DNA of 64,000 bases from Cyclobacteriaceae bacterium (GTDB lineage Bacteria > Bacteroidota > Bacteroidia > Cytophagales > Cyclobacteriaceae): assembly GCA_028284125.1 (NCBI GenBank), contig JANQSI010000018.1, positions 524,998 through 588,997 on the forward strand, read 5' to 3'. A model generated the notes under the pieces. That model was given only the letters and a program-made list of their open reading frames with translations, made no database searches and was not told the DNA's origin. Shown here piece by piece: positions 25,343-39,080 of the stretch. The position numbers were made by a program, and so were the translations under genes. Each line of letters starts with the position of its first letter. Positions within the stretch are counted from its first letter, which is position 1.

Positions 25343-25374
25343 TTTGTTAAATCAAAGGAGTCGTTCTATTTTTG
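25343..25374 (+). promoter_or_regulatory. Full Bacteroidota promoter of the LuxR-type regulator
   Basis: TTTG (25343-25346), 20 bp, TATTTTTG (25367-25374). The -7 box abuts the iron-box operator, so the transcription start lies inside the operator. Confidence 0.75.
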
Positions 25375-25392
25375 TTTAGAATCATTCTAAAT
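25375..25392. promoter_or_regulatory. Iron-box operator 1
   Basis: TTTAGAATCATTCTAAAT, a perfect dyad with a 7-1-7 core. It fills the space between the -7 box and the ATG at 25394, a position that would block transcription when bound. Confidence 0.75.
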
Positions 25393-25393
25393 A

Positions 25394-26032
25394 ATGACTG
25401 CAGCCACAAGGTCAGTTCTGCTGGCAGATTTTCAGTTTCTAACCAGGCAAGGGATCGCTTCTCTTATCAATGATTTAGATGATTTCAATGTCATAGACCA
25501 GATTGAAGATCCGAAAGAACTGGTGGCATCCGTAAGTAAATTGAAACCTGACATTGTGGTGCTTGATGTTTCTGATAACGACACTTTTCTTATCAGAGAA
25601 ATTGAGCAAATTAAATCAAATGAGACATCAAGCTTCCTGATTATTTCTAATAGTCAAAACAGGCAGTCAGTCCAACGTTTGCTGTCGATGGGAATCAAGG
25701 GAATCGTTACCAAGAACTGCAGTGAGGAAGAAATCACCAACGCAATTAAATCAGTTGCTGTTGGGAATCGATTCTTTTGCAATAATGTGCTTGAACTTGT
25801 GGTTGGAAAGGATGATGCAGATGACTGTGAGCCTACCAATTTATCTCCACGTGAGTTTGATGTGTTGAAATTGATAACCAAAGGGTATAAGACACATCAA
25901 ATTGCAGATGAATTGCATGTCAGTGTACACACGATTAATTCTCATCGAAAAAACATACTCAAGAAACTAAACCTGAAGTCACCAGCCGAGTTGATCGTCT
26001 ATGCCTTGGAATCGGGACTAGTCAGATCTTAA
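25394..26032 (+). CDS. NarL/LuxR-type response regulator, orphan
   Basis: This 212-residue protein has a receiver domain (residues 5-120) with predicted phospho-acceptor Asp58 in IVVLDVSDND, and a LuxR-type HTH at about 148-205 (LSPREFDVLKLITKGYKTHQIADELHVSVHTINSHRKNILKKL). The N-terminal acidic pair is reduced to one Asp (Asp12 in LLADFQF), which may weaken Mg2+ binding and phosphorylation. No kinase gene is adjacent. Its promoter carries a perfect iron box, so it is probably made under iron limitation and may act as a second-tier regulator. The 3' end overlaps the converging thioesterase gene by 4 bp. Confidence 0.9.
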   Translation: MTAATRSVLLADFQFLTRQGIASLINDLDDFNVIDQIEDPKELVASVSKLKPDIVVLDVSDNDTFLIREIEQIKSNETSSFLIISNSQNRQSVQRLLSMGIKGIVTKNCSEEEITNAIKSVAVGNRFFCNNVLELVVGKDDADDCEPTNLSPREFDVLKLITKGYKTHQIADELHVSVHTINSHRKNILKKLNLKSPAELIVYALESGLVRS

Positions 26033-26421
26033 TCGAAAATTGGAAGTGGGGTAGGTTTTCGGTCTTCATTGATGGCAACAAATGAAAATTCACCTGCTAT
26101 TGCTTTGTCTCTTCCATCGGAATACATTTCTTCAATATAGATTTCTACAGAAACCTTTAAGCTCGTTCTTCCAGTATCTGTTACTCGACCCACCAACTCG
26201 ATGATCGTACCGTGTGGAATAGGTTTTTTAAAATCAATCTTACTGCTGCTGACAGTGACCATTCGCATTCGGCTAAATCGTGTGGCAGTAATAAAAGCAA
26301 CTTCATCCATCGCATGCATGGCTGTTCCACCAAAGAGCGTATCGTAATGATTGGTGGTATTTGGAAATACGGCCTTGAAAATTCTTGTCTCGGATTGATC
26401 GATTCGTTCTTGTAGTGTCAT
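26029..26421 (-). CDS. Acyl-CoA thioesterase, hotdog fold
   Basis: A 130-residue single-hotdog protein of the YciA/BFIT-like group that hydrolyses acyl-CoA. Marks are NHYDTLFGGTAMHAMDEVAFITATRFSR (with the catalytic Asp/Glu region) and VSSSKIDFKKPIPHGTIIELVGRV. It converges with the LuxR-type regulator and has no iron box of its own. Substrate range cannot be read. Confidence 0.9.
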   Translation of the reverse strand: MTLQERIDQSETRIFKAVFPNTTNHYDTLFGGTAMHAMDEVAFITATRFSRMRMVTVSSSKIDFKKPIPHGTIIELVGRVTDTGRTSLKVSVEIYIEEMYSDGRDKAIAGEFSFVAINEDRKPTPLPIFD

Positions 26422-26502
26422 TGAGTTTAAAACAATTCCTAAAAATGAAAGGTTTCCAATCTCACTACTACTAGCTATTGGAATGGCTATACATAGCTAC
26501 GT

Positions 26503-26547
26503 AATCGCTAACATTAGCGATTAAAAAATTGACCAGAACTAGCGATT
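26503..26547. promoter_or_regulatory. AATCRCTA module upstream of DUF6686-like gene
   Basis: AATCGCTA occurs at 26503-26510, inverted at 26515-26522 (perfect 8-bp arms, 4-nt loop) and inverted again at 26540-26547 within AGAACTAGCGATTGT. The same order and spacing recurs at 31804-31848 upstream of the ankyrin operon. Looks like an activator or repressor site independent of the iron box. Confidence 0.6.
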
Positions 26548-26581
26548 GTCCATACTTCGAATCATGGACAATTTTACATTG

Positions 26582-26599
26582 TTTAGAATGATTCTAAAT
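26582..26599. promoter_or_regulatory. Iron-box operator 2
   Basis: TTTAGAATGATTCTAAAT, perfect dyad, 40 bp upstream of the chosen ATG at 26639. A TTG (26546-26548) and a weak -7-like CAATTTTA (26569-26576), 20 bp apart, precede it, placing the operator at the transcription start. Confidence 0.72.
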
Positions 26600-26638
26600 A
26601 AGTTCACTTATCATTTAAGTTTTCCTTCTGACAAGAAT

Positions 26639-26965
26639 ATGTGTATCAATAACAATCAATTATCACTCATTGAGCAGGATCAGTGCCAGATAACCTATTG
26701 TAAAGGCTGCAAGACCTTTTCTTTAGTTTTCAACAGTTGTTGTGCTTCTTTTACTAAAAAAGAGCTAAAGCAATTTCGTGAAACGCTTGAAGGATTGCGG
26801 GATTCTGATTATCAATTTAACTATATGGATAACCAAAATGCGATTGTTGTTAAACCTAATCTCTACATAGGTTTTTGTCTTTCAAGAGAAGAGACTCAGC
26901 TACTTCATCAATCAATTATGGAAGCGGAAACTTTGTTCGAAGCTTTTGGAGTCATCTACAATTAA
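26639..26965 (+). CDS. Small Cys-rich protein, DUF6686-like
   Basis: A 108-residue soluble protein. The N-terminal third carries CQITYCKGCKTFSLVFNSCCASF (five cysteines within 20 residues), followed by FRETLEGL and a C-terminal helix LSREETQLLHQSIMEAETL. The pattern matches by eye the DUF6686 family of Bacteroidota; I could not verify this. The gene at 38742 encodes a protein with the same layout. The ATG at 26639 is chosen because upstream ATG/TTG codons precede or overlap the iron box and promoter. With an iron box in front, a role in iron handling or sensing is likely, but unproven. A strong terminator follows. Confidence 0.75.
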   Translation: MCINNNQLSLIEQDQCQITYCKGCKTFSLVFNSCCASFTKKELKQFRETLEGLRDSDYQFNYMDNQNAIVVKPNLYIGFCLSREETQLLHQSIMEAETLFEAFGVIYN

Positions 26966-26981
26966 ATCCTTTCCAAAAACA

Positions 26982-27012
26982 AAAAACCGTCTGATATCAT
27001 CAGACGGTTTTT
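26982..27012. terminator. Bidirectional terminator
   Basis: A perfect 14-bp stem AAAAACCGTCTGAT / ATCAGACGGTTTTT with a 3-nt loop between the DUF6686-like gene (+) and the DUF6607-like gene (-). Confidence 0.92.
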
Positions 27013-27033
27013 ACTGCTAAAATGAATACGTGC

Positions 27034-27978
27034 TTAATTTAAAGCTATTTTGATTTCATCCGTATTTATGTGTTTCTGAATCGCTTCTCTAATTTTTGTT
27101 TTACTAGCTTCACTGTCATAAGAATCTCCTACTAATTCACTTCCCAATGCGAACATTCGCATCATCAATATCTGATCTCCAGATCTCATTTTTAGCTTGA
27201 GTGTTTTTTGGCTTGCAAAAACCTCATCCCAAACGGATCGCACATCCGCCCAATAGGCTTGATTCTTTTCCCACCAATCTTTAGCTACCTGACACTTGCT
27301 TTCATCCGTTTTTGTATACTCGTTCCAGCCTTTTTCCTGGGCGATCAATTTATCTCCTTCACTGTTTCTTTTGACCTTAAGGTTGTCTTGCTCATGCACC
27401 CAACCATTGTTCGTAAGCTCTTGACGGTTACGTCTGACCATTACATTATAGTCATTTCTTTTGGTTTTCTCTCTTCTTGGAAGTGGTGCATCTGCCGTAG
27501 TTTCCCAGTAGCGTCTTTCATCCACGTGTACCCACGATCCACTTGCCTCATATCTTGGGCTGTCATCGACTTGAAAAACTTTTTGGGTCCATTGACCTTT
27601 TACTTTGGCTGCATCCAACTTGTTATAATTCCAGGCATCTCTGACATCATATTCATATAGGTCAGTGTTCTCGTAAACCCAGTCTTGCCTCCAGTGTTTG
27701 ACAATCATCGTGTCTCCCACAACTAATAGGTGTTGGATGACGATCTTGTCGTCTTCTTGGCTAACTGGGAAAATCCACTCAAGCCCGCCTGCCGTATAAT
27801 TTTTGTGAAACTCGTAAGCCGTATCTGCGGCAAAAGTCTCAGCGAAATTGAAGGTGATTTCATGACAGCCACACATAGATAGAATTGCTTCTATGTCTTC
27901 TTTCTGTTTCTTTTTTTGAGCGGTAGTGACACCTACCACCAGAGATAAGAGAATGGTAAAAAATAATTTGGTATTCAT
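27034..27978 (-). CDS. Secreted DUF6607-like protein
   Basis: This 314-residue protein has a signal peptide (LFFTILLSLVVGVTTAQ) and a mature part rich in aromatic residues: MCGCHEITFNFAETFA, HWRQDWVYENTDLYEYD, GQWTQKVFQVDDSPRYE and CQVAKDWWEKNQAYWADVR. It resembles DUF6607, which in other genomes occurs with TonB receptors and HmuY proteins; this assignment is from memory of the family. It is the last gene of the receptor-HmuY operon, 73 bp behind hmuY, with a hairpin in between that may lower its expression. Probable role: periplasmic or surface partner in haem or iron uptake. Confidence 0.75.
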   Translation of the reverse strand: MNTKLFFTILLSLVVGVTTAQKKKQKEDIEAILSMCGCHEITFNFAETFAADTAYEFHKNYTAGGLEWIFPVSQEDDKIVIQHLLVVGDTMIVKHWRQDWVYENTDLYEYDVRDAWNYNKLDAAKVKGQWTQKVFQVDDSPRYEASGSWVHVDERRYWETTADAPLPRREKTKRNDYNVMVRRNRQELTNNGWVHEQDNLKVKRNSEGDKLIAQEKGWNEYTKTDESKCQVAKDWWEKNQAYWADVRSVWDEVFASQKTLKLKMRSGDQILMMRMFALGSELVGDSYDSEASKTKIREAIQKHINTDEIKIALN

Positions 27979-28007
27979 TTTAGTGATAATTTAATGTTTT
28001 TCATAAA

Positions 28008-28035
28008 TCAAGGCCTCTACTTGTAGAGACCTTGA
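28008..28035 (-). terminator. Intra-operon hairpin between hmuY and DUF6607-like gene
   Basis: TCAAGG-c-CTCTAC pairs with GTAGAG-a-CCTTGA around a 2-nt loop (12 pairs, one mismatch). The downstream T tract is short, so it may be a weak terminator, attenuator or RNA-stability element rather than a full stop. Confidence 0.6.
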
Positions 28036-28051
28036 ATTTAGTTTTGTCAAT

Positions 28052-29473
28052 TTATTGAATGAGTTCGTATGCCACCTCAGGATATCCTCGTTCTCCCTGG
28101 TCACTATACATTTTTGTAAATCTAAACTTGTAGAAGTTCCCTTCACTGTCTTCCAATACATAGAATACGGAAGTATTGATTGTGAATCCAAAGGTTGCAA
28201 AGTCGAAAATCCTCCAGTTGCTACCGATGATGTTTCCTGCTTCAGAAAATGTCATAGAGGTCAGATCTGAACTGCCGAAATTGTCAAACTCGGAGTGATC
28301 CATATCTACGGCGGCTATTTGCACACCCCCTTGTCGGTTAGATAGAATGAAATCTGAAAACCCATAAGCACCATCTCCAGCACCGAAATCAATGATGTTT
28401 GAGGAAATAGCGAAAACGATATCCCATCGATCTTTTGCAGGCTCTACAGTAATATCAGAACCATCCTCGAAGTTGAAAAAGACAAAATTTGTTGTTGGGT
28501 CCTTAGTAACAGTTACTTCTTCAAAAGTAGTAGCAGCAATATCCGCGTGTTGGATAACATAATCATTCCCGCTTTTTAGTATTCGGATTTTTTTCCATCC
28601 ACGCTCTGTTCCATCCACGTTTACAGATCCTACGGTAACATCTCCTGTGCCCGGCCCAAATCCTCTGTTAATGATGTACACATTGTTTTCGGAATCGGTA
28701 GCCGAGATGTCTGCTATGGCAAGTTTATCTAAATCTCTGTCCGGGTTATCTATGTAGATATGAGCACCGGCGGTACCAATCGTTTGAATAGCAGCAAATC
28801 CAACAGTATCGGCTGCTGTGACACTGTTCATATCGGTTTTATCCAATGCTTGTGCCATTCCATATGTCGCAAAATTCACTATGACTTTGTCTTCAGTACC
28901 GGTGTAAAAGCCTAGATCCCAGCTTGTTCTCGCAGCGGCAGTTTCTGCATTCAAACTAAAGTCTACAAAAACCATGTTAGGTTGAGTAGGACCACCAACA
29001 CTTGCTTCGATTGTAGATCCTGCTGAAACAATGGCTTCAAAGCTCACTTCAAGTTCCGTATTTCCGGAAATCTCAACATTCGTTTCTCCGTCTACAGATT
29101 GCAAAGCGAAGGAAACCGAGCTCCCTGGTGCGATTACATCAGCTGTACGATTAATTGTGAAAGAAGCTGATTCAGAACCAGCCGGTATGTTGATTGTTAA
29201 CGTTCCTGCTGCGATCGCTGGAGTTGTCGAGTAATCAGTGCCTGCTATCACACCAGTTTCAGTTACAGCAATCGTAACATCAATATCTTCTATGGTAGCA
29301 CGACTAAATGAGATCGCCACATCCAGGCTTCCCATGTCACTCGTAAGACCCAAAGCGGTGGTTTGAAATGCAACGCCTAAGGTTGCAATCTCACCATCAT
29401 CATCTGAACACGAGCTTACGACTAATAGTATGGCTAAGCTCGAAATTGTTAATAGTTGTTTAACACTTTTCAT
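28052..29473 (-). CDS. hmuY: HmuY-family haem-binding lipoprotein
   Basis: This 473-residue lipoprotein has the lipobox LLVVSSC. Residues about 30-150 form a Calx-beta-like domain (TSDMGSLDVAISFSRATIEDIDVTIAVTETG...). The rest is HmuY-like with two WD-containing blocks, SWDLGFYTGTEDKVIVN and RWDIVFAISSNIIDFG, separated by a region with strongly acidic loops. In Porphyromonas HmuY takes haem and passes it to the TonB receptor HmuR. Here the gene lies 17 bp behind a TonB receptor gene in the same order of function. The haem ligands (two His in P. gingivalis HmuY) cannot be assigned by eye; other HmuY homologues use Met. Confidence 0.85.
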   Translation of the reverse strand: MKSVKQLLTISSLAILLVVSSCSDDDGEIATLGVAFQTTALGLTSDMGSLDVAISFSRATIEDIDVTIAVTETGVIAGTDYSTTPAIAAGTLTINIPAGSESASFTINRTADVIAPGSSVSFALQSVDGETNVEISGNTELEVSFEAIVSAGSTIEASVGGPTQPNMVFVDFSLNAETAAARTSWDLGFYTGTEDKVIVNFATYGMAQALDKTDMNSVTAADTVGFAAIQTIGTAGAHIYIDNPDRDLDKLAIADISATDSENNVYIINRGFGPGTGDVTVGSVNVDGTERGWKKIRILKSGNDYVIQHADIAATTFEEVTVTKDPTTNFVFFNFEDGSDITVEPAKDRWDIVFAISSNIIDFGAGDGAYGFSDFILSNRQGGVQIAAVDMDHSEFDNFGSSDLTSMTFSEAGNIIGSNWRIFDFATFGFTINTSVFYVLEDSEGNFYKFRFTKMYSDQGERGYPEVAYELIQ

Positions 29474-29490
29474 TGTTATATTAAGTAATT

Positions 29491-31749
29491 CTAAAATTTA
29501 TATGTTGCCCTTAAAAAATAAGATCTTCCGTATGCCAGTGCTGTGGTGGTAGCAGCAGCAGAGTGAACGCCAGCTTGCCCTGTAGTCGTTTGGACATCTG
29601 TGATATTCATTAAGTTTTTAACTCCGCCCCGAAACTCAAAATGGTTATTGAATCGCCATGTAGAGGTGAGGTCCAGCCAATTGAATGATTCTGTCACCCC
29701 TTTTCTAAACTCTTCATCTTCCTGAATGTATTGCTCAACTCTCCCGGTATGTTTATAGTACAAAGCCAGGCTAAGATTTGGCTTGAGTTTGTAAATCGTA
29801 TTGAAGTTTAACTCGGGAGAAAAAAGGAAGTCATCAAGGCTATTGTCGTCTTCAAAAAACTGGTTAAATCTTCCGATGTAGGAGGCGCCTACGTTAATGG
29901 CAATTTTAGGCCATTCGAGTTGATTGTTGAAGCTGAGTCCTTTCGACTTAAATCTTTCAATGTTGATGTATTGAAACTGAAGTGGTGCTTCGTTAACTAC
30001 TGCCAACATGATTTGATCACTCAGGTTGTTATAAAAAAGTTTGAGTGAACTTGATGCAAGGAGATTTCCCGTCTTGATTCTTTTCTTTATATCAAGTGAA
30101 AGACCGTAACCATCTTCAGGTCTTAACTCAGGATTTCCTCTCACATCATGGTTTGCGTCCACGAACCAGAAATACAATTCGGTGATGTTTGGTGTTCGAT
30201 AGGATCGTCCGGCCGAAAACCTGATATCAAAATTTGCTGGGGCATTGTATTTGGCATTAATCGAATAGATCAAAGGGGAGGCATACAATGAGTTATAAAA
30301 TGTTCTAAAACCAGGTCTTAAAGTCAGCTTGGAAATGGGAGTCCACTCCAGGTTTGCAAACCCAGCGATGTTATCAATGCTTTGTTGACCTTCATCAATT
30401 TGAGCACCATCTACACTTTCATGAGTATATTCATACCCTAGCTCAAGGTCGAATGGTTGCGAGCCTAGAATATTGGTCACATTTCCTCGGCTTGTAAATG
30501 ATTCAAGGAAACTTATTTCTTCATTTGTGATTTCCTCTTCTTGTTCCGTTTGAATTCGGTATCTGTAGTTGTATTGTCGGGCCCTTACTTTAGTAAATGC
30601 TGAAACTACGCTATAGCCAATTGGATTGTCATGACCTAACTGACCCGAGAAATCAAGGTAGTGACCGTAGCGCCTTGTTTCGTTGCGAAGATCAAGAGCA
30701 AATGGATTTTCAATTCCCGAAGAAATATGCTCGTCAGGAAAGACAACACGTGAATGTCTGTCCAGTTTTTGACCAAAGTAATTAACTCTATATCTGCCTC
30801 TGAATCTTTTTCCTTTATAGGTGGCAAAAGCACTTGTCGCGTATTGTAATTTGGGAAGCCAGTCGTGTCCTCTCAGATCATCATTTTCGGTATGATCCTT
30901 ACCTTCAAATCCATTGAAAAATCCTCGAAAATCATTTCGCTGAAATTCGCCCTGAATGCTCCACTTTTCACCAAGATCTTTACCAAGGTTTATTGTTTGA
31001 ATGTGGCGCCCTTTATCCCATCCATATTCTGGTCCAACTGTTTCTTCCTGTATGGATACAGAATTGTACGTAGATTGCTTAGTGATCAAATTCACTACAC
31101 CTGCTAATGCATTGGCACCATAACTCACCGCCATTGGGCCCTCCACAATTTCAACGCGCTCAATGGAGTTCATATTTATCTGGGATATATCAACATTGTT
31201 TCCATTCCCGTTGATACTTGGCACAGGAATCCCGTCAATAAGCACTTTGACATATTGTCCATCCAAACCAAGCATGCTTATGGAGGTCCGGCCTTCCGAT
31301 TTGCTAGGAGTTAGCGTGATGTTGAGGTTGTTGCTTAGAACATCGGCCAGATCAATAGCACCCTGGGCTTCAATTTGTTCTCTGTGAATGGCCTTTACGG
31401 TGTGAACCGACTGGTCAATGGATTGAGGCTCGAACTGCCCAGTGACAACAACATCATTCAAGTAGGTAGCTTCCGGAGCAAGAGAAATTACCGATTCTGT
31501 GGTTAAAAGTTTTCCATTGAGATTTGAGTAGGAGACATGGCTGACCTGGTATTGAACCGGTAGATTTAGTGAAAAATTGAAATGGCCGCTTTCATCCGTA
31601 ACACCAAATTCTTCACCCTGGTTATTTCTTACAACTACAAGTACACTAGATACTGGCTCTTTTGTTTCCTGATCGAGGACTTTCAATACACTTTGTGAAA
31701 AACTTCGTGCAACTGTGAATATGAGTGTTATTGCTATGATTAATTTCAT
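29491..31749 (-). CDS. TonB-dependent outer-membrane receptor, haem type likely
   Basis: This 752-residue receptor has a signal peptide, a CarboxypepD_reg-like domain (residues 20-90), a plug with DVVVTGQ and the VERVEIVEGPMAVSYGANALAGVVNLIT-type segment, and a barrel ending in Phe. Near residues 515-545 it has SYRTPNI and GNPELRPE, similar to the FRAP and NPNL boxes of haem receptors, with a His (ANHDV) between them, the place where haem receptors carry a ligand His. It is followed by hmuY and the DUF6607-like gene. A perfect iron box ends 2 bp before the ATG. Substrate haem is inferred from these facts together. Confidence 0.9.
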   Translation of the reverse strand: MKLIIAITLIFTVARSFSQSVLKVLDQETKEPVSSVLVVVRNNQGEEFGVTDESGHFNFSLNLPVQYQVSHVSYSNLNGKLLTTESVISLAPEATYLNDVVVTGQFEPQSIDQSVHTVKAIHREQIEAQGAIDLADVLSNNLNITLTPSKSEGRTSISMLGLDGQYVKVLIDGIPVPSINGNGNNVDISQINMNSIERVEIVEGPMAVSYGANALAGVVNLITKQSTYNSVSIQEETVGPEYGWDKGRHIQTINLGKDLGEKWSIQGEFQRNDFRGFFNGFEGKDHTENDDLRGHDWLPKLQYATSAFATYKGKRFRGRYRVNYFGQKLDRHSRVVFPDEHISSGIENPFALDLRNETRRYGHYLDFSGQLGHDNPIGYSVVSAFTKVRARQYNYRYRIQTEQEEEITNEEISFLESFTSRGNVTNILGSQPFDLELGYEYTHESVDGAQIDEGQQSIDNIAGFANLEWTPISKLTLRPGFRTFYNSLYASPLIYSINAKYNAPANFDIRFSAGRSYRTPNITELYFWFVDANHDVRGNPELRPEDGYGLSLDIKKRIKTGNLLASSSLKLFYNNLSDQIMLAVVNEAPLQFQYINIERFKSKGLSFNNQLEWPKIAINVGASYIGRFNQFFEDDNSLDDFLFSPELNFNTIYKLKPNLSLALYYKHTGRVEQYIQEDEEFRKGVTESFNWLDLTSTWRFNNHFEFRGGVKNLMNITDVQTTTGQAGVHSAAATTTALAYGRSYFLRATYKF

Positions 31750-31751
31750 TA

Positions 31752-31769
31752 TTTAGAATGATTCTAAAC
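31752..31769. promoter_or_regulatory. Iron-box operator 3 (TonB receptor operon)
   Basis: Reads GTTTAGAATCATTCTAAA on the minus strand, lacking only the last symmetric base. It lies 2 bp before the receptor ATG, the same geometry as operator 1. A weak -7-like GATATTTG is just upstream. Confidence 0.75.
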
Positions 31770-31803
31770 AAATGCAAATATCAAAGCGTTGGATAATCCA
31801 CAC

Positions 31804-31848
31804 AATCGCCAATCTTAGTGAATTTCGAATTAGCTAGAACTAGTGATT
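31804..31848. promoter_or_regulatory. AATCRCTA module in haem-locus divergent region
   Basis: AATCGCCA (31804), an inverted partner TAGTGAATT (about 31816-31824) and inverted TAGTGATT within AGAACTAGTGATTGT (31836-31850). Distances match the module at 26503-26547 exactly (32 bp between AATCGC and AGAACTAG). The whole forms an imperfect dyad of about 49 bp between the two divergent operons. The TTG at 31847-31849 can act as -33 element of the ankyrin promoter. Confidence 0.6.
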
Positions 31849-31877
31849 GTGAGAGTGAGAGATACTGTTCAACTTTG
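31847..31877 (+). promoter_or_regulatory. Promoter of ankyrin operon
   Basis: TTG (31847-31849), 20 bp, CAACTTTG (31870-31877), which departs from TAnnTTTG only in the first base. The -33 TTG lies inside the conserved AGAACTAGYGATTGT element. Confidence 0.5.
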
Positions 31878-31881
31878 CTTA

Positions 31882-31899
31882 TTTGGAAGCATTCTAAAC
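31882..31899. promoter_or_regulatory. Iron-box operator 4, degenerate left half
   Basis: TTTGGAAGCATTCTAAAC: the right half ATTCTAAA is intact, the left half has three changes. It covers the expected transcription start of the ankyrin operon, at the same place as operator 2 in its promoter. Confidence 0.55.
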
Positions 31900-31909
31900 A
31901 ACAACACAA

Positions 31910-33412
31910 ATGAAATTCTCAAACAGCTACTTTCTACTTATCATTTTGGTGGTTTTAGGTAATGTGACTTATGGCCAGAACAAGAACATTTTGATTGACC
32001 GGTCATTTTGGAAGCAACAACCTTCTGTAGAAGAGGTTGAGAAAAAAATCAAAGAAGGTCACTCCCCAACAGCAATGACCTCTTCCAATTTTGATGCAAC
32101 AGTCTATGCCATCTTAGAGAACAATTCTCTTGAAACGATAAAGTATCTACTTACGCAGGGTAATGCGGTTGACAAAATCACTCATGATGGGAGAACCTAT
32201 TTGATGTGGGCAGCTTTAAGAGGAAATATTGAGGTAATGAAGTACCTGGTGGATGAAGGAGCGAAATTGGACATAGTCGACCAACATGGTTATTCATTGT
32301 TAATGTTTCCTGCATCAAATGGGCAGCCGAACACGATGATGTATGATTATATGCAAAATGAATTGGGCATTGACATTCTTGAAGAAAAAGACAGAAATGG
32401 AAGGAATGCTTTGCTTGCTTGTGCATCGCGAATAAAAGATTTTGAGTTGGTGGATTACTTCATTTCCAAAGGATTGGATATCAATAGTGTGGATGCCAAC
32501 GGAAATGGGATGTTTCACTATGCAGCTCAAACGGGCGATAAAAAAGTGATCAAGAAGCTTGTTGCTGATTACAAAGTCAATGCTGGATTGAATGAAAACA
32601 CGAATGAGAACGCTATTCTGTTTGCGACAAGGAGAAATGGACCTAGTCTTTCTTTCTTTCAATACTTAGAAAAAGAGTTTGATCTGGACCCGGCCATCGT
32701 TTCTAAAAAAGGACAAAATGCACTTCATAGTTTGGTGACTCGAACGAAAGACCTGGAAACGATTCGCTATTTTGTTGAGAAGGGAGCAGATCCAAATCAG
32801 CAGGATGATAAAGGAAATAGTGCACTCATCAATGCATCGGCGAGAGGTTCTAAGGAAGTAATCGAATACTTGATCAGTAAAACGTCCGATATCAATGTGA
32901 CCAATAAAGATGGATTGTCCGGTCTGACAAGAGCGGTAAAGTACAACTCGCTTGAGGTTGCAAAACTTCTAAAGGACAGTGGAGCAGATATCGAAGTTGT
33001 TGATCGAAAAGGAAATAATCTGGGCTATCATTTGGTTGATGCATTTAACAGAGATGTTGATGCCTTCAAGCAAAAAAGCGAATACCTGGTTGGTCTTGGA
33101 CTTGACATGAACTCCAAACAATCGGAAGGCACCACATTGGTACACAATGCAATCAAAAAGAGTGATATCGAGCTGTTGAAGGTGTTACTGTCTTACGGAA
33201 TTGACATTAATGCCAAGGATGAAAATGGTGATACAGCCCTTCATAAAGCAGCGCTCCAATCACAGGATGAAAAAATGTTGAAGTACCTGGTGAAAGCTGG
33301 AGCAGATCTTGGAATCAACACTGCATTTGATGAGTCGGCATATGATTTAGCAAAAAGCAATGAAATGTTAGCTGACACAAACATTGAATTCTTAAAAGCA
33401 GAAGGGAAATGA
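31910..33412 (+). CDS. Exported ankyrin-repeat protein
   Basis: A 500-residue protein with a signal peptide (LLIILVVLGNVTYGQ) followed by ankyrin repeats over nearly the whole length, for example DGRTYLMWAALRGNIEVMKYLVDEGA, KGNSALINASARGSKEVIEYL and NGDTALHKAALQSQDEKMLKYLVKAGA. Ankyrin stacks bind proteins, so it is probably a periplasmic scaffold. It is the first gene of an operon with a DUF2271 protein and a membrane flavoreductase; the stop overlaps the next start (ATGA). Some bacterial ankyrin proteins work beside catalase or haem proteins in the periplasm, but no such partner is proven here. Confidence 0.88.
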   Translation: MKFSNSYFLLIILVVLGNVTYGQNKNILIDRSFWKQQPSVEEVEKKIKEGHSPTAMTSSNFDATVYAILENNSLETIKYLLTQGNAVDKITHDGRTYLMWAALRGNIEVMKYLVDEGAKLDIVDQHGYSLLMFPASNGQPNTMMYDYMQNELGIDILEEKDRNGRNALLACASRIKDFELVDYFISKGLDINSVDANGNGMFHYAAQTGDKKVIKKLVADYKVNAGLNENTNENAILFATRRNGPSLSFFQYLEKEFDLDPAIVSKKGQNALHSLVTRTKDLETIRYFVEKGADPNQQDDKGNSALINASARGSKEVIEYLISKTSDINVTNKDGLSGLTRAVKYNSLEVAKLLKDSGADIEVVDRKGNNLGYHLVDAFNRDVDAFKQKSEYLVGLGLDMNSKQSEGTTLVHNAIKKSDIELLKVLLSYGIDINAKDENGDTALHKAALQSQDEKMLKYLVKAGADLGINTAFDESAYDLAKSNEMLADTNIEFLKAEGK

Positions 33413-33894
33413 AAAGATTGGTTTTTCTGGTTGCATTGTTCCTTTTTGCTTTTGTAGGTACCTCGTGGAAATATAGCAATGGAACCAAAAATGTGAAGTG
33501 TCTCATCCAGTTGACCAATTATGGCGGTGAAGGAGCCTACATCGCCGTTTCTCTTTTGGACTCTACGGGCGCTTATAAACAAACCTTATATGTTGGTGGC
33601 TTTGAAGAGGAATGGTATCCGGACCTTCCTGAATGGTATGCTTTTTATAACGATGATTTTGAATCGATCGATGGTATCACTGGTGCTTCCATTCAAAGCG
33701 GAGGAAGAAAAATTACCTCATTAGTGATAGCTGCTGACAAACTCGATGCGGGTTACAAATTGCGGTTTGAGACATCAGTAGAAGATGAATCTTACTTCAG
33801 CAAAGATGTGGAGGTTGATCTGACGAGTGAAAACATCAATCAAACGGTAGAAGGATCAGGCTACATTCGCCTTGTAAAAATGATGGCAAACTAA
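33409..33894 (+). CDS. Secreted DUF2271-like protein
   Basis: A 161-residue protein with a signal peptide (VFLVALFLFAFVGTSW). The mature part shows GAYIAVSLLDSTGAYKQTLYVGG and WYPDLPEWYAF, the pattern of DUF2271, whose members usually lie beside PepSY-domain membrane proteins, as here. It overlaps the ankyrin gene by 4 bp and precedes the PepSY reductase gene by 7 bp, so the three are translated from one messenger. Likely a periplasmic partner of the reductase; no binding residues can be named. Confidence 0.8.
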   Translation: MKRLVFLVALFLFAFVGTSWKYSNGTKNVKCLIQLTNYGGEGAYIAVSLLDSTGAYKQTLYVGGFEEEWYPDLPEWYAFYNDDFESIDGITGASIQSGGRKITSLVIAADKLDAGYKLRFETSVEDESYFSKDVEVDLTSENINQTVEGSGYIRLVKMMAN

Positions 33895-33901
33895 CTTGTC
33901 G

Positions 33902-36100
33902 ATGAAGGTTTCTCCCTGGAGACTTCTACATTTATGGCTGGCCATTGTTTCTTCAGTTTTCATCCTGATTGCATCAATCACGGGAGTGATTCTGGCGATT
34001 GAGCCGGTTTATCAACAATCATATGGATACGAAAGACCTGAAGCAGATGAACTTTCAGTGACTGATCTCATTGAAAATACGTCTGTTGCTTACCCAGAAA
34101 TTTCAAGCATTCGAAAAGATCATAATGACTATTATCAAATCACCATTTTTGATGAAGAAGGCGAAAGCACTTTTTATGTAGATCCCATTACAGGTGAGCG
34201 GTTGGGTGAACTTATCAAAACTCCGGAACTATTTGATTTTGCGCGTGTCCTTCATCGCTCACTTTACTTGAAACAGACTGGGCGCTTTATAATAGGAGTT
34301 ACTTCGTTGCTTTTGGTTTTTATATGCATCGCAGGTTTTGTTCTGGTAGTGAGAAAACAGGGCGGAATAGTTTTATACTTCAATAAGGTAGTCAAGGAAA
34401 ATTTCTATCAGGATTACCATACCAAATTGGGGAAAATTTTCATTTGGCTGATCCTATTCGTCAGCATCACAGGCACCATTTTGTTTCTTGAGCGCTTTGA
34501 TCTATTAGGAGAACAAACGATCAGTCACTCTTTTGATTCACCACAAAGTGATCAACCGGCAACTTCGGATTTTGATGTCTTCGAGTCAACCCCACTTAGC
34601 GATTTCAAAGAATTGGTATTTCCGTTTTCAGATTTCGATGATGATTACTTTGAGCTCAAGCTGGAGGATAAGGAGTATTTAATTAACCAAAAGACAGGAG
34701 CTGTAGCTAGCGAGATTGATTATAGCAACGGAATCTTAATTTCAAATTTTGCTTTTAAATGGCATACGGGAGAAGGCCAAACCTGGTGGGCCATCACGCT
34801 CGGAATTTCTTCCGTTGGACTGCTATTTTTCATCTATTCAGGCTTTGCTATTTATTTCAAACGAATTTCTTCGAAATCAAAATGGAAAAACACATTTCCA
34901 AAGGAACAATGTGAGTTGGTAGTTGCAGTTGGGTCAGAAACTGGGTCAACCGCAGAAAAAGCTAGCGCGCTTCACAAAGCACTTGTCAAAGAAGGTGTCA
35001 AAGCTTTTACGGTCACGCTGAATGATTTTGAATACTTCCCATCAATGAAGCATTTAGTGGTGATGACCTCTACCTATGGAAAGGGAGATGCTCCATCTAA
35101 TGCTAGCCAATTCGTCAAAAATTTTAATTCTGTTAAAGACCAATATGCTCCTTTTCAATACAGTGTCATAGGATTTGGGTCCAGATCCTATCCGGATTTT
35201 TGCCAATATGCTGTTGAATTAGATCAGTTCCTTGAGCAGCATACTTCAGCCTCACGTCTGCTTCCTCTTCACAAAGTAGAAGATGGTTCACTCAATGGAT
35301 TTGAAGGATGGGTGCAGGCGGTTGCGAATAAATTGAACCATGAGCTTAGAGTGAACGACTTTCTCAAAAAGCCGACGCTTGTCAATCTTCAGGTTGCTAA
35401 AAATACGGTTTCACAAAATCTGGAAGATCAAACGTTCCTGATGGAATTGACTGCTAGTAATGAGAACCTAAAGGACATCCAATCCGGAGATTTATTAGCA
35501 ATTTCTGGTGAAGATGGTATCCTCAGGTACTATTCCATGTCTGTAGATAAATCAAGGAAAGCAATTCTCCTCAGTATTAAAAAGCACAAAGAGGGAAAGG
35601 TATCTAATCACCTATCTCGATTGGCAGTAGGCAGCCACGTTGAAGCATCTTTCAAGAAAAATCCAATTTTTCATTTTCCAAAAAAAGCTTCCGGTGTTTT
35701 ACTTATCGCAAATGGAACAGGTATAGCTCCTTTCTTGGGCATGCTAGCATCCAATGCGCGAAAAATTCCTACCATGCTATTCTGGGGAGGAAAAAATGAA
35801 ACTTCTCTATGTTTATATAAACCCTATTCGGATGAACTCAAAGAAGATGGAAAACTGGAGCATTTTCAGACGGCTTATTCAAGGATTGAAAATGGAGCTA
35901 AATATGTCCAGGAACTTTTGCTACAGAACGAAAGTCTAGTCACCAGTATTCTGAAGAATCAAGGTGTCATTATGATTTGTGGATCACTCAAAATGCAGGA
36001 AGGTGTGGAGAAAATCTTAAATGGGATTGCAGAGAAAAACCTAAACCAGCCAATTGGTTTCTTTAAAGACAAGAAGATGGTTAGAGCAGATTGTTATTGA
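33902..36100 (+). CDS. PepSY membrane protein fused to flavodoxin and FAD reductase
   Basis: About 732 residues from the ATG at 33902 (the TTG at 33896 is less likely). The N-terminal half is a PepSY-associated membrane domain with four hydrophobic helices and conserved His in VLHRSLYL, DYHTKLGK and FKWHTGEG, possible haem b ligands as in FoxB/PiuB-type ferric reductases. Then come a flavodoxin-like domain (VGSETGSTAEKASALHKAL, FMN; from about residue 340) and a CysJ-like FAD/NADPH domain (YYSMSVDKSRK; NGTGIAPFLGML; CGSLKMQEGVEKIL). Electrons would run NADPH-FAD-FMN-haem to the periplasm to reduce ferric iron, a siderophore or haem. Substrate is inferred from the iron-box operon. Confidence 0.88.
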   Translation: MKVSPWRLLHLWLAIVSSVFILIASITGVILAIEPVYQQSYGYERPEADELSVTDLIENTSVAYPEISSIRKDHNDYYQITIFDEEGESTFYVDPITGERLGELIKTPELFDFARVLHRSLYLKQTGRFIIGVTSLLLVFICIAGFVLVVRKQGGIVLYFNKVVKENFYQDYHTKLGKIFIWLILFVSITGTILFLERFDLLGEQTISHSFDSPQSDQPATSDFDVFESTPLSDFKELVFPFSDFDDDYFELKLEDKEYLINQKTGAVASEIDYSNGILISNFAFKWHTGEGQTWWAITLGISSVGLLFFIYSGFAIYFKRISSKSKWKNTFPKEQCELVVAVGSETGSTAEKASALHKALVKEGVKAFTVTLNDFEYFPSMKHLVVMTSTYGKGDAPSNASQFVKNFNSVKDQYAPFQYSVIGFGSRSYPDFCQYAVELDQFLEQHTSASRLLPLHKVEDGSLNGFEGWVQAVANKLNHELRVNDFLKKPTLVNLQVAKNTVSQNLEDQTFLMELTASNENLKDIQSGDLLAISGEDGILRYYSMSVDKSRKAILLSIKKHKEGKVSNHLSRLAVGSHVEASFKKNPIFHFPKKASGVLLIANGTGIAPFLGMLASNARKIPTMLFWGGKNETSLCLYKPYSDELKEDGKLEHFQTAYSRIENGAKYVQELLLQNESLVTSILKNQGVIMICGSLKMQEGVEKILNGIAEKNLNQPIGFFKDKKMVRADCY

Positions 36101-36146
36101 TCACTTCGACTACCCACAATTATCACATTTTCCATCCTTCTTTTTT

Positions 36147-36173
36147 GGTGCAAATGATCGCACCATAAAAAAA
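36147..36173. terminator. Possible bidirectional terminator
   Basis: GGTGC / GCACC around an 8-nt loop, flanked by a T6 tract on the left and an A-rich tract on the right, between the reductase gene (+) and feoB (-). Short stem, so moderate confidence. Confidence 0.5.
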
Positions 36174-36213
36174 CACGCATAAAGGAAAAGTAAACCGACA
36201 ATGGATAATTGAA

Positions 36214-38100
36214 TCATGCGATTAATTGATAAGCGATCAATGAACTAACATATGCAAGAACAGTCATATAGCCTAATTGGACCAACGGCCATTTCCAGCT
36301 TTTTGTTTCTCTTTTGGTGATGGCGAGCGTACTCATGCATTGCATGGCGAATGCATAAAATATCATCAACGAAATTCCAGTTGCAAGTCCATAGAGTTTT
36401 TCACCAGTTGCTGGATTGATCTCTTGGTTCATTCTTTCTAACAATGAGGCTTCCATATCCGATTCGTCAATACTGTATATGGTGGCCATCGTTCCAACAA
36501 AAACTTCACGCGCCGCAAACGAGGTAATTAAGGAAATCCCAATTTTCCAGTCGTATCCTAATGGTGCAATCGCTGGTTCAATTTGTTTACCAAGAATCCC
36601 GATGAACGAAGTTTCCAGAGAAGTTTGTGGTATGACTGATTCGCTTTCGTCTGCATTGGATCCAAAAGAATCAGGGCCATAAGAACCTAGTACCCACAAT
36701 ATGATTGAGATCGCCAGAATAATCCGACCTGCTCCCCATACAAAAGCCTTGCTTTTTTCATACACATTAAAAGCAACAGTACTTAATCTCGGCATTTGAT
36801 ACCTTGGCATTTCCATGATCAAGAAGCTTTTGGACTTGGTCATGAGAATTGCTTTGAATATCATCGCGAAAATCAGTGCTGCAATAACACCGAGTAAGTA
36901 CATTCCGAAAAGTACCAATCCTTGAAGGTTGGCAAATCCTCCTACCAATTGATCAGGTACGGTCAACGCAATGAGAAGAATGTAAACAGGTAATCGAGCT
37001 GAGCAACTCATGAGAGGAGTGACAAGAATGGTGATGAGCCTTTCTTTTGGCTGGTCTATGGAACGGCTCGACATGATCGCAGGAATAGCACAAGCAACAC
37101 CCGACATTAATGGGACCACACTTTTGCCATGAAGTCCAAATGGGCGCATGATTTTATCCATCAGGAAAACGACTCGAGTCATATAGCCTGTTTCTTCCAA
37201 AATGGAAAGAAATAGAAACAGGAACGCGATCTGTGGAATGAAAATCACTACTCCACCAATTCCCGGAATAATTCCTTCGATGAATAATGAAGAAAGAGGT
37301 CCGGGCGGTAACTGAGTGGACAAGAAAGAACTAGAGCTTACAAAAAATGCATCAATCAAATCCATTGGGACATTCGCGAAAACATATATGAACTGAAAGA
37401 TTACGAATAGAATGGCAATGAAAATCGCGTAACCCCAAACTCTATGAATAAGAATTCTGTCAAGTTGACTGGTTAATTTATGAAGTTGAGGTTTCTTTTC
37501 CTTGTGAAGGAATTTCAACAGCTTATCAATTTTTTGATATCGATCTTCCGTTTCTTTTAGGTAGTCGGTTCCATTGTCGCTTTGATAGAATTGTTGCCAG
37601 TTATCATTTTTCTCAAAAGACCCAATGGCAGATTTCAAATCATCAATACCTCCAGCTCTTGCATTCAAGGCAACAACCGGAACTCCGCCAAGAAGCGAAC
37701 TCAATTTTTCTTCAGAAATATCCTGGTTGTCTTTTTGACTGAGATCTATTCGATTTAATGCGATGAGAACCGGGATCTTTAAATCGTACACCTGGGAAAA
37801 CAAAAGAAGATTCCTTCTAAGATTGGTGGCATCTACTACTACCACAACTAAATCCGGCGGATTATCATCCGTTAAATAGTTCAGAACAACTTTCTCGTCT
37901 TCTGTTTTTGGGTTGATGCTATAGGTACCTGGTAAGTCAACTACATCAATTTTATTGTCCTGAAGTTTGAATGATCCATATTTCTTGTCAACTGTGACAC
38001 CAGGATAATTTCCGACCTTTTGGTTGAGTCCAGTCAATAAATTGAAAATGGTACTTTTACCTACATTCGGATTCCCAACTAGTGCTATTTTATTGATCAA
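36214..38100 (-). CDS. feoB: Ferrous iron transporter FeoB
   Basis: A 628-residue GTP-dependent Fe2+ transporter of the inner membrane. The N-terminal G domain has GNPNVGKS (residues 9-16), DLPGTYS and NRID (NKxD-type), then a helical spacer and the membrane part with two Gate segments and LMSCSARLPVY, which contains the conserved pore Cys. It is shorter than the roughly 770-residue E. coli protein, mainly at the C terminus, as in other compact FeoB proteins. FeoA is encoded 5 bp upstream. No FeoC-like gene follows. Confidence 0.96.
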   Translation of the reverse strand: MINKIALVGNPNVGKSTIFNLLTGLNQKVGNYPGVTVDKKYGSFKLQDNKIDVVDLPGTYSINPKTEDEKVVLNYLTDDNPPDLVVVVVDATNLRRNLLLFSQVYDLKIPVLIALNRIDLSQKDNQDISEEKLSSLLGGVPVVALNARAGGIDDLKSAIGSFEKNDNWQQFYQSDNGTDYLKETEDRYQKIDKLLKFLHKEKKPQLHKLTSQLDRILIHRVWGYAIFIAILFVIFQFIYVFANVPMDLIDAFFVSSSSFLSTQLPPGPLSSLFIEGIIPGIGGVVIFIPQIAFLFLFLSILEETGYMTRVVFLMDKIMRPFGLHGKSVVPLMSGVACAIPAIMSSRSIDQPKERLITILVTPLMSCSARLPVYILLIALTVPDQLVGGFANLQGLVLFGMYLLGVIAALIFAMIFKAILMTKSKSFLIMEMPRYQMPRLSTVAFNVYEKSKAFVWGAGRIILAISIILWVLGSYGPDSFGSNADESESVIPQTSLETSFIGILGKQIEPAIAPLGYDWKIGISLITSFAAREVFVGTMATIYSIDESDMEASLLERMNQEINPATGEKLYGLATGISLMIFYAFAMQCMSTLAITKRETKSWKWPLVQLGYMTVLAYVSSLIAYQLIA

Positions 38101-38105
38101 CGCCT

Positions 38106-38327
38106 CTACTTTTCTTCAATTGAAATTAATTCAGCTTCATTACGTCTAAGCATGACGAGATGTCCATCTACCTCGAACATTAATGGATCTCCAAACGGAG
38201 CTTTGTTAACCATTAGCACGGTCTGATTAGGGTAGATTCCCATCTCATACAACCGATTTTTTAAATCACTTTCTTCAATGTGAGTAATTGAATGAGGTTG
38301 GTTTGGACGAATGGATGAAAGCTTCAT
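38106..38327 (-). CDS. feoA: FeoA, SH3-like partner of FeoB
   Basis: A 73-residue cytoplasmic protein with the FeoA pattern: LKNRLYEMGIYPNQTVLMVNKAPFGDPLMFEVDGHLVMLRRNEAELI. It is required for Fe2+ uptake by FeoB. First gene of feoAB; its promoter overlaps an iron box and has two FNR/CRP-type boxes upstream. Confidence 0.94.
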   Translation of the reverse strand: MKLSSIRPNQPHSITHIEESDLKNRLYEMGIYPNQTVLMVNKAPFGDPLMFEVDGHLVMLRRNEAELISIEEK

Positions 38328-38348
38328 TCAGGTTTTAATGAGTAATCG

Positions 38349-38356
38349 CAAATGTA
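38349..38356 (-). promoter_or_regulatory. Bacteroidota -7 box for feoAB
   Basis: Reads TACATTTG on the minus strand; expected start near 38342. A TTTG 16 bp upstream lies within the iron box and may serve as -33 element. Confidence 0.65.
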
Positions 38357-38359
38357 CTA

Positions 38360-38377
38360 TTTAGAATTATTCCAAAT
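38360..38377. promoter_or_regulatory. Iron-box operator 5 (feoAB)
   Basis: TTTAGAATTATTCCAAAT, one base off perfect symmetry. The change (CTAAA to CCAAA) creates the TTTG used as the -33 element on the minus strand, so operator and promoter overlap. Confidence 0.72.
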
Positions 38378-38400
38378 AATTTATTGTTAATCTTTTTTCA

Positions 38401-38433
38401 TGATATAAATCAGTCATTCTATGATTTAAATCA
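38401..38433. promoter_or_regulatory. Two FNR/CRP-type boxes, 21 bp apart
   Basis: TGATATAAATCA (38401-38412) and TGATTTAAATCA (38422-38433) are perfect TGAT-N4-ATCA dyads with identical flanks, exactly two helical turns apart. The first is centred about 64 bp upstream of the expected feoA start, the usual place of class I FNR/CRP activation. Factor identity is inferred. Confidence 0.6.
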
Positions 38434-38491
38434 GCTAAATACTATTCCGCTGTGTGGATCTTCGTTTATGGAAATATCGGTCAGAATTTCA

Positions 38492-38509
38492 TTTAGAATA
38501 ATTCTAAAT
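38492..38509. promoter_or_regulatory. Iron-box operator 6
   Basis: TTTAGAATAATTCTAAAT, perfect dyad, just upstream of the -33 element of the FhuF-like/ferritin operon. Confidence 0.75.
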
Positions 38510-38513
38510 AAGC

Positions 38514-38544
38514 TTGTTGAATTAAATGATCGAAGTTAGGTTTG
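38514..38544 (+). promoter_or_regulatory. Promoter of FhuF-like/ferritin operon
   Basis: TTG (38514-38516), 20 bp, TAGGTTTG (38537-38544). It is enclosed by iron boxes on both sides. Confidence 0.72.
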
Positions 38545-38551
38545 CAATCTA

Positions 38552-38569
38552 TTTAGAATGTATCTAAAT
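38552..38569. promoter_or_regulatory. Iron-box operator 7
   Basis: TTTAGAATGTATCTAAAT, two central bases changed in the right half. It covers the expected transcription start near 38551. Confidence 0.65.
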
Positions 38570-38581
38570 AATGAAATTTTG

Positions 38582-38764
38582 ATGGACAGTACCACTGGAA
38601 AGAGGCGTGTTTCGAAGCTCTATGAAGAGTATTCATTGAAGAAGAGGAAAAAGAAAAAAGTTAAAGATGAGTGTTGCTTCAAATACATGAAAAAGAAAGG
38701 AAAGTACTGTAAATCCTGTCCAACATTACATGCTATCTGCAATGACGCAAGAAGAAATTTTTAG
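38582..38764 (+). CDS. Stand-alone FhuF-type [2Fe-2S] mini-protein
   Basis: A 60-residue, very basic protein (SLKKRKKKKVKDE) whose second half has CCFKYMKKKGKYCKSCP: exactly CC-X10-C-X2-C. This is the iron-sulfur motif at the C terminus of the siderophore-iron reductase FhuF, here without the reductase domain. The ATG at 38582 is chosen because the ATGs at 38558 and 38571 lie in or beside the iron box and the latter is followed by a stop after three codons. It begins the operon with a DUF6686-like gene (23-bp overlap) and ferritin, so it may reduce ferric iron leaving or entering the ferritin core; this is inference. Confidence 0.75.
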   Translation: MDSTTGKRRVSKLYEEYSLKKRKKKKVKDECCFKYMKKKGKYCKSCPTLHAICNDARRNF

Positions 38765-39080
38765 TACAAAGAGCGCTGCTATCCTTCAGTGCGAATCCAA
38801 TGAATCGTTTTTGCTTCGATTCGAGCGTGACGAGATCCCATTCAAATTATGTGACCTTTTCACTTTCAGAAAGCGGATTATGGAGCTTGATGTGGTGGAG
38901 CTTCTGGATAGCCAATCTCCTGATATGGAGATCATCCACTTGCCGCATTGTGATCGATTTTTGGCCTTAAGTATTTTGGAGGTTTTGGAATTTAGAGAGC
39001 TTCTAAACGGAACCTTTGATACTTTAGCATTAAATAGCGCAATTCAGAAAATTTTGAGAAAAAGCGTTTTTAACTTCTAA
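38742..39080 (+). CDS. DUF6686-like protein, paralogue of 26639 gene
   Basis: A 112-residue soluble protein (an ATG at 38730 would add 4 residues). Its layout follows the protein at 26639: a strand region with Cys and Phe (AAILQCESNESFLLRFERDEIPFKL), FRKRIMELD where the other has FRETLEGL, a polar strand region, and a C-terminal helical LSILEVLEFRELL where the other has LSREETQLLHQSI. The N-terminal CxxC/CC cluster of the other protein is mostly missing here. It overlaps the FhuF-like gene by 23 bp, so translation is coupled, and ferritin follows after 11 bp. Function unknown; iron context is clear. Confidence 0.78.
   Translation: MTQEEIFSTKSAAILQCESNESFLLRFERDEIPFKLCDLFTFRKRIMELDVVELLDSQSPDMEIIHLPHCDRFLALSILEVLEFRELLNGTFDTLALNSAIQKILRKSVFNF

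Follow-up and report, generated by a model that had tools for sequence, protein, structure and literature searches.

We analysed a window of 64,000 nucleotides (nt) from a Cyclobacteriaceae bacterium (assembly GCA_028284125.1, contig JANQSI010000018.1, positions 524,998 to 588,997), whose genome is a draft of 4.5 Mb that is 96.9% complete. An earlier sequence-only reading had described seven copies of one dyad over 13 kb of this window and had ascribed them to an iron/haem regulon. All seven copies were re-read in the sequence and confirmed, and their starts had been given correctly. In the frame used here they are 19 base pair (bp) palindromes with the consensus ATTTAGAATnATTCTAAAT, starting at 25374, 26581, 31751, 31881, 38359, 38491 and 38551. 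We call them Fur boxes after their predicted binder. We consider it quite likely that they belong to a two-tier regulon, in which a LuxR-type regulator would act as a relay through a second operator. The genes and sites are listed below by position, with the strand where one applies.

25374..25392, Fur box at the start of the luxR-type gene, GTTTAGAATCATTCTAAAT
25394..26032, plus strand, LuxR/NarL-type regulator with receiver and GerE helix-turn-helix (Pfam GerE 2.8e-19, Response_reg 2e-11)
26504..26521, second operator, upstream dyad of the DUF6686 promoter, ATCGCTAACATTAGCGAT, a perfect inverted repeat
26527..26548, plus strand, second operator, proximal dyad of the DUF6686 promoter, overlapping the -33 element (2 mismatches to the consensus)
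26581..26599, Fur box of the DUF6686 gene (pattern scan)
26639..26965, plus strand, DUF6686 protein (Pfam 2.9e-8)
27034..27978, minus strand, DUF6607 protein, third gene of the receptor-hmuY operon (Pfam 1.1e-112)
28052..29473, minus strand, HmuY-domain protein (Pfam HmuY 8.3e-20)
29491..31749, minus strand, TonB-dependent receptor (nearest NCBIfam model TonB-hemin, below cut-off)
31751..31769, Fur box of the receptor operon (pattern scan)
31803..31824, minus strand, second operator, proximal dyad of the receptor operon, AATTCACTAAGATTGGCGATTG on the minus strand (1 mismatch)
31828..31849, plus strand, second operator, proximal dyad of the ankyrin operon, AATTAGCTAGAACTAGTGATTG (1 mismatch)
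31881..31899, Fur box of the ankyrin operon (3 mismatches)
31910..33412, plus strand, ankyrin-repeat protein (Pfam Ank_2 2.6e-55)
33409..33894, plus strand, DUF2271 protein (Pfam 3.6e-33)
33896..36100, plus strand, PepSY_TM-flavodoxin-reductase fusion (Pfam PepSY_TM 8.2e-33, Flavodoxin_1 7.3e-19)
36214..38100, minus strand, FeoB (Pfam FeoB_N 3.1e-54)
38106..38327, minus strand, FeoA (Pfam 7.1e-16)
38359..38377, Fur box of feoAB, directly upstream of the -7 element TACATTTG (pattern scan)
38491..38509, distal Fur box of the ferritin operon (perfect)
38551..38569, second Fur box of this operon, proximal, at a distance of 60 bp from the first
38582..38764, plus strand, small basic protein of 60 amino acids with a CC-x10-C-x2-C motif (translation)
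38742..39080, plus strand, uncharacterised protein, weakly DUF6686-like (hhalign probability 90, E 1.5e-6, small alignments)
39092..39619, plus strand, ferritin (Pfam Ferritin 2.9e-33)

Most gene names of the sequence-only reading were recovered with Pfam; the middle gene of the ferritin operon had no Pfam match up to E = 1. The 60 amino acid protein likewise had no Pfam match up to E = 1 and no NCBIfam match, and it is kept ahead of ferritin within the genus. Its cysteine motif presumably resembles the C-terminal cluster motif of FhuF. The neighbours of the luxR-type gene are fumC and a thioesterase gene, with no hemerythrin gene among them.

On the 15-bp core, four of the seven sites were perfect, one had 1 mismatch and two had 2; a further core with 2 mismatches, at 53977, lies within an open reading frame of 334 amino acids. 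With up to 3 mismatches the 19-bp form occurred 7 times in the window, compared to a mean of 0.148 for 500 palindromes made from permuted half-sites, whose maximum of 7 has to be read with the fact that such a permutation can regenerate the original half-site. A loose 15-mer with up to 3 mismatches showed a modest excess (18 matches, shuffle mean 9.09, 1 of 100 shuffles as high). Across the genome, the 11 sites with up to 2 mismatches lay outside long open frames in the stretches read, except for 26581, where the overlapping frame with a TTG start was taken as spurious. Two further candidates were rejected: a box-like stretch at 38992 falls into the ferritin-operon coding region and recurs in the same gene of relatives, which points to coding conservation, and a site at C6:376981 within a long coding frame was judged a chance match.

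A whole-genome pattern scan supported the iron/haem regulon, since boxes in the rest of the genome and in sister species were also found at iron, haem, iron-sulphur and respiratory genes. In total, the genome holds 5 perfect cores, four of them in the window. The 19-mer gave 18 matches with up to 3 mismatches (7 for the reversed pattern) and 11 with up to 2 (1 for the reversed pattern). Outside the window, boxes were located upstream of hemA (GlutR domains), of a multihaem cytochrome gene followed by a 4Fe-4S protein gene, which by inspection form an operon of the alternative-complex-III type, of an extracytoplasmic function (ECF) sigma gene and of another TonB receptor gene. One box (C7:244144), which was read individually and lies outside the clusters of orthologous promoters, is near a gene that by inspection is subtilisin-like.

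Most of these links between box and gene were found again in nine sister genomes, which together with the own genome form the genus set of ten. This set contains 83 sites with up to 2 mismatches, of which all but three were read (one on C230 of G002 and two of G009). With Pfam identities taken from single representatives, the box recurred at the ferritin operon in 9 of the ten genomes, in 8 each at the intergenic region of hemA and a helix-hairpin-helix gene, the cytochrome operon and luxR, and in 4 at the ECF sigma gene. The sister genomes added as targets DUF4856-imelysin (8 genomes, the own not among them), a solute-binding protein that is Fbp-like by inspection (6) and sufB (3). Among 29 genomes including the own, we counted 179 matches with up to 2 mismatches, compared to 21 for the reversed pattern, and 28 had at least one. 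In a phylum sample of 395 genomes, 85 had a match with up to 1 mismatch, and a control match was present in four as read. Many families of this sample had no match at all; the box is therefore not common to all Bacteroidota.

Several single observations accompany this map. The ECF sigma gene carries its box in the own genome and in relatives (L021 5877, L107, L113, L237), which hints at a further regulatory layer. The hemA box (L020 7799 and its orthologues) ends 1 nt before the start of the divergent HHH_3 gene in all 8 genomes; this gene is ComEA-like and may be iron-controlled. In several sister genomes (L105, L112, L119, L234) the region from the Fur box to hemA contains a TGATTTTTATCA-like dyad, so that hemA may also be under oxygen control. 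In addition, a Fur box was found ahead of a NiFe-hydrogenase small-subunit gene (G002:C578, L117 3531), and in a genome of another family (G022, L072 7457/7517) a pair of Fur boxes 60 bp apart precedes a PepSY-type gene.

To identify the factor, Fur-, PerR- and DtxR-like genes were searched for, as also suggested by the sequence-only reading. The genome encodes two Fur-family proteins (PF01475 4.7e-29 and 4.7e-10), whose genes are both on other contigs, in line with the earlier statement that the window does not encode the factor. Two DtxR-type genes were found in a metal ATP-binding cassette (ABC) transporter cluster, of which two stretches were read; these contain no box better than 5 mismatches. 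A PerR gene was not found in this draft, and neither Fur-family gene is of the peroxiredoxin-linked type, which occurs as a third Fur-family type (PerR by inspection) beside peroxiredoxin in some relatives. The stronger Fur-family gene (L016; G000:C5:2058-2417, in the order relA-fur-STAS-purA) is nearest to solved Fur proteins (1e-19; PerR 1.1e-16), and its model scores were 1.6e-24 for Fur, 1.2e-21 for PerR, 4.2e-9 for Irr and 3.8e-10 for IrrA. With 86.2 bits it stayed under the Fur equivalog cut-off of 146 and reached no subfamily cut-off; these models are from other phyla and hence do not decide, while the Irr and IrrA scores are far under their cut-offs and speak against membership there. 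The closest named Fur proteins (~82%) are records from Algoriphagus, Marinoscillum and others of Cyclobacteriaceae type. Thirteen aligned Fur sequences share H42, E90, H98, D99, H100, E111, H135, C103 and C143 without exception, residues that may belong to metal sites. The second gene (L017) is nearest to Zur.

The geometry of the box, a 7-1-7 core, had been read correctly as Fur-like. Its sequence had been called different from Fur boxes and nearer to Irr boxes, and this has to be revised: the box is the predicted Fur box of Riemerella anatipestifer, 5'-ATTTAGAATTATTCTAAAT-3' (PMC5609570; this and the other papers are cited for the parts of their text available), and the candidate protein scores best with Fur models. 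The box itself is thus already published as a Fur box, in another class of the phylum. Purified R. anatipestifer Fur shifted four promoters including hmuR in gel assays, and eleven boxes are tabulated (PMC5609570). In a second study binding was Mn-dependent, and two receptor genes were derepressed in a fur mutant (PMC7976709). The fur gene described there, of 486 bp with a Fur domain at 28-151 (PMC5609570, PMC7976709), fits the L016 protein in size. We conclude that Fur is very likely the binder, with Irr, PerR, Zur and DtxR made less likely by model scores, gene content and neighbourhood.

The sequence-only reading had put all seven copies at promoters, most of them over the expected start. 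This is mostly right, as the box follows a -7-like element and would cover the start at luxR, the TonB receptor, the ankyrin operon and the proximal ferritin-operon box (38551). It did not hold for feoA, where the box is just upstream of the -7 element, for 38491, which lies upstream of -33, and for DUF6686, which has no good -7 element. The luxR promoter has the -7 element TATTTTTG with a TTG 20 nt upstream. At feoA, the solute-binding protein gene and sufB, the distance from the box start to the -7 element is 21-25 nt, and the box therefore fills the spacer between -33 and -7. The ECF sigma promoter of the own genome has a -7 element with 1 mismatch. In 8 of the ten genus genomes the two ferritin-operon boxes are exactly 60 bp apart and flank one -33/-7 pair. 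A looping device was considered as the reason for this spacing and rejected, since a single promoter whose -33 and -7 elements have a fixed distance, with a box on either side, is the simpler explanation.

Upstream of feoA, between the Fur boxes of feo and the ferritin operon, two TGATnnnnATCA dyads were also observed (TGATATAAATCA at 38401-38412 and TGATTTAAATCA at 38422-38433). We take this pattern to be of the FNR/CRP type; it occurred 8 times in the window, with 3.3 expected.

A second operator, which the sequence-only reading had not noticed, was found upstream of the receptor, ankyrin, DUF6686 and, in relatives, DUF4856 promoters. It consists of two tandem dyads, approximately ATCRCTAGnnCTAGYGAT and, 25 bp on, AATTCRCTAnnnnTAGYGATTG, of which the closing TTG is the -33 element. 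The nearer dyad hence overlaps -33 and lies about 41 nt upstream of the Fur box (54 nt in the DUF6686 promoter). Between the divergent receptor and ankyrin operons, the dyad at 31828..31849 is at the same time the upstream dyad for the receptor genes. Across the genus set the composite pattern had 9 matches with up to 2 mismatches, all within the luxR cluster, and 14 more with 3 mismatches, two of them in that cluster; the control, at an unstated mismatch level, gave 2 matches in all, both in G003.

We then compared 17 promoters taken as targets of the second operator with 30 other Fur-box promoters. The promoters of hemA, the helix-hairpin-helix gene, the cytochrome operon, sdhC and hydrogenase, and those of luxR in G012, G014, G018, G425 and G478, belong to neither set. 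The half-site TAGYGATTG was present with 0-1 mismatch at -39 to -44 in all 17 targets and had 2-5 mismatches in all 30 others, although the consensus was derived from 13 of the 17, the genus promoters, and many promoters are orthologous to each other; Mann-Whitney values for this comparison were set aside on these grounds. Four independent target promoters lie outside the genus (two in G016, one each in G012 and G018); the ferritin-operon promoter of G016 has the half-site, unlike that of the genus. A perfect -7 element before the box was found in 2 of the 17 targets, with three more having one downstream of the box, compared to 26 of 26 others (30 less four ECF-sigma promoters). The weak -7 elements give the targets the appearance of activator-dependent promoters. 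The open papers searched, the primary ones on the haem regulator CdhR not among them, yielded no description of this operator, and its link to LuxR is an apparent new part.

The luxR-type gene is itself preceded by a Fur box. Boxes with 1-3 mismatches were also found before luxR homologues in G016, G012, G014, both paralogues of G018 and one homologue each of G425 and G478. In the latter two genomes, other homologues score best (33% identity; their best upstream match has 7 and 6 mismatches, respectively), ahead of those with a box (30% identity). Two Fur boxes 58 bp apart were seen at the boxed homologues of G425 and G478 (L333 8315/8373, L334 8725/8783), a distance near the 60 bp of the ferritin operon. 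In other genera, genes for TonB receptors, HmuY-domain proteins and a FecCD-type ABC transporter again lie near the luxR homologues. Moreover, the operator type follows the recognition helix across seven regulator groups: in all four groups with Asn after T[IV] the targets have the half-site, while regulators with Tyr, Arg or Ala at this position have targets without it (3, 2 and 4 mismatches). In G008, where no luxR homologue was found, an intact Fur box beside fumC is followed by a luxR remnant of only nine codons (G008:C337, L229 674-720). The proximal dyad of the G008 DUF4856 promoter has 7 mismatches, and the Fur box is kept.

These data suggest the following mechanism. When iron is plentiful, iron-loaded Fur would bind the boxes and block the promoters either over the start or closely upstream of it, and it would also repress the LuxR/NarL-type gene (25394-26032). 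When iron is short, the regulator would be made, bind the two tandem dyads, the nearer of which overlaps -33, and activate the receptor-hmuY-DUF6607, ankyrin-DUF2271-PepSY and DUF6686 promoters, whose weak -7 elements would need an activator. The feoAB, luxR and ferritin promoters would answer to Fur alone. That the LuxR-type candidate activates through the second operator is the explanation we favour, with some reserve. With a shade less confidence, we also favour a Cytophagales-wide family of Fur-repressed orphan NarL-type regulators in feed-forward loops of haem and iron uptake, in which operator and recognition helix change together and the operator decays when the regulator is lost. The poor fit of the full dyad in other genera makes us slightly less confident in this wider loop.

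A number of findings weigh against the proposed regulon. G015 has an L016-type Fur and no box with up to 2 mismatches. A PF01475 match is missing in G023 (2 boxes, control 0) and G027 (3 boxes, control 1), as it is in G001 and G017, both incomplete. In R. anatipestifer some of the tabulated boxes are poor, among them that of the gel-shifted sprT promoter (PMC5609570), and the second study gives the Escherichia coli consensus, not this sequence, as the box (PMC7976709). As for the relay, the survey of luxR homologues covered 30 loci, 9 of them without a picked reading frame, and among the 21 examined a Fur box with up to 1 mismatch was found in 3, the own included. The four promoters outside the genus have the half-site, and their full proximal dyad has 3-5 mismatches. 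The upstream dyad alone was not enriched genome-wide (77 matches, 58 in the control); it was rejected as a marker, and genome scans therefore used only the composite with fixed spacing. Finally, G002, a draft of 930 contigs, has a perfect proximal dyad by a Fur box and no luxR orthologue was found in it, and the receptor on contig C6 has a proximal dyad far from luxR.

The last two cases, together with the fact that the LuxR-type protein is a binder of the dyads by prediction from sequence, would fit a regulon run by Fur alone, with the second dyads belonging to an unrelated regulator or being a relic of promoter duplication. We regard this as unlikely, given that the composite matches cluster at luxR, that the genes downstream of the second operators are not homologous to one another, that the half-site tracks the recognition helix (four groups with Asn and half-site, three without either) and that in G008 the loss of luxR goes with a decayed dyad and a kept Fur box. 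Another metalloregulator at the boxes themselves, be it the Zur-like L017, a PerR-like protein or one of the two DtxR/MntR-type proteins, seems highly improbable. The 7-1-7 geometry of PerR boxes, a PerR score of L016 little under its Fur score, the presence of two DtxR-type genes and one site ahead of a His-rich receptor, which could carry another metal, could all be cited for it. However, the own genome yielded no PerR-type gene, the targets are iron genes whereas L017 is nearest to Zur, the two stretches read of the DtxR-type cluster have no good box, and the Riemerella box is tied to Fur by mutant and gel shift (PMC5609570, PMC7976709).

It is also conceivable, if rather doubtful, that some boxes activate, with iron-loaded Fur upstream of -33 raising transcription of hemA and the cytochrome/Fe-S operon. 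In the own genome the -7 elements of these two begin 65 and 74 nt after the box start, respectively, and several respiratory genes of R. anatipestifer are listed as lower under iron restriction (PMC5609570). The hemA box, however, adjoins the divergent helix-hairpin-helix gene so closely that it may serve that gene, and the distance at the cytochrome operon differs among genomes. On balance, we retain repression by Fur with the LuxR relay as the preferred explanation.

The analysis links a repeat that had lacked an explanation to a known sensor, and it provides a map of Fur boxes with conserved targets for an environmental group of Bacteroidota. If the relay is true, it would provide a named operator for a CdhR-like haem activator placed under Fur, and the separation of general iron control from the control of haem uptake would become directly testable.

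Of the known systems, Irr boxes (iron control elements, ICE) and PerR boxes share the 7-1-7 geometry, but the Irr protein models score clearly worse and no PerR gene was found. The closest counterpart of the boxes is R. anatipestifer Fur, with the same 19-bp consensus and a controlled haem receptor gene (PMC5609570, PMC7976709). Gel shifts and Mn-dependent binding are reported there, whereas the system here is known from its sequence; R. anatipestifer belongs to a different class, and the available text of both papers reports no luxR relay. The Fur homologue of Porphyromonas gingivalis, PgFur, binds the hmu promoter, reportedly lacks His-rich regulatory-metal motifs and binds no iron (PMC6613475). 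Unlike PgFur, the Fur protein here keeps its His, Asp and Glu positions across the 13 aligned relatives. For the relay, the nearest likeness is CdhR (PG1237) of P. gingivalis, a response regulator that binds DNA and is reported to activate hmu (PMC10101095). CdhR shares an operon with a hemerythrin-domain gene, and higher expression under iron limitation is reported for this operon and for its counterpart in Bacteroides thetaiotaomicron (PMC10434189), whereas the window regulator sits with fumC and a thioesterase gene. Neither a CdhR operator nor a preceding Fur box was seen in the available text of PMC10101095 and PMC10434189. With its receiver and LuxR-type helix-turn-helix, and with CdhR activating an HmuY operon (PMC10101095), the window regulator is by analogy a candidate CdhR-like activator of hmu.

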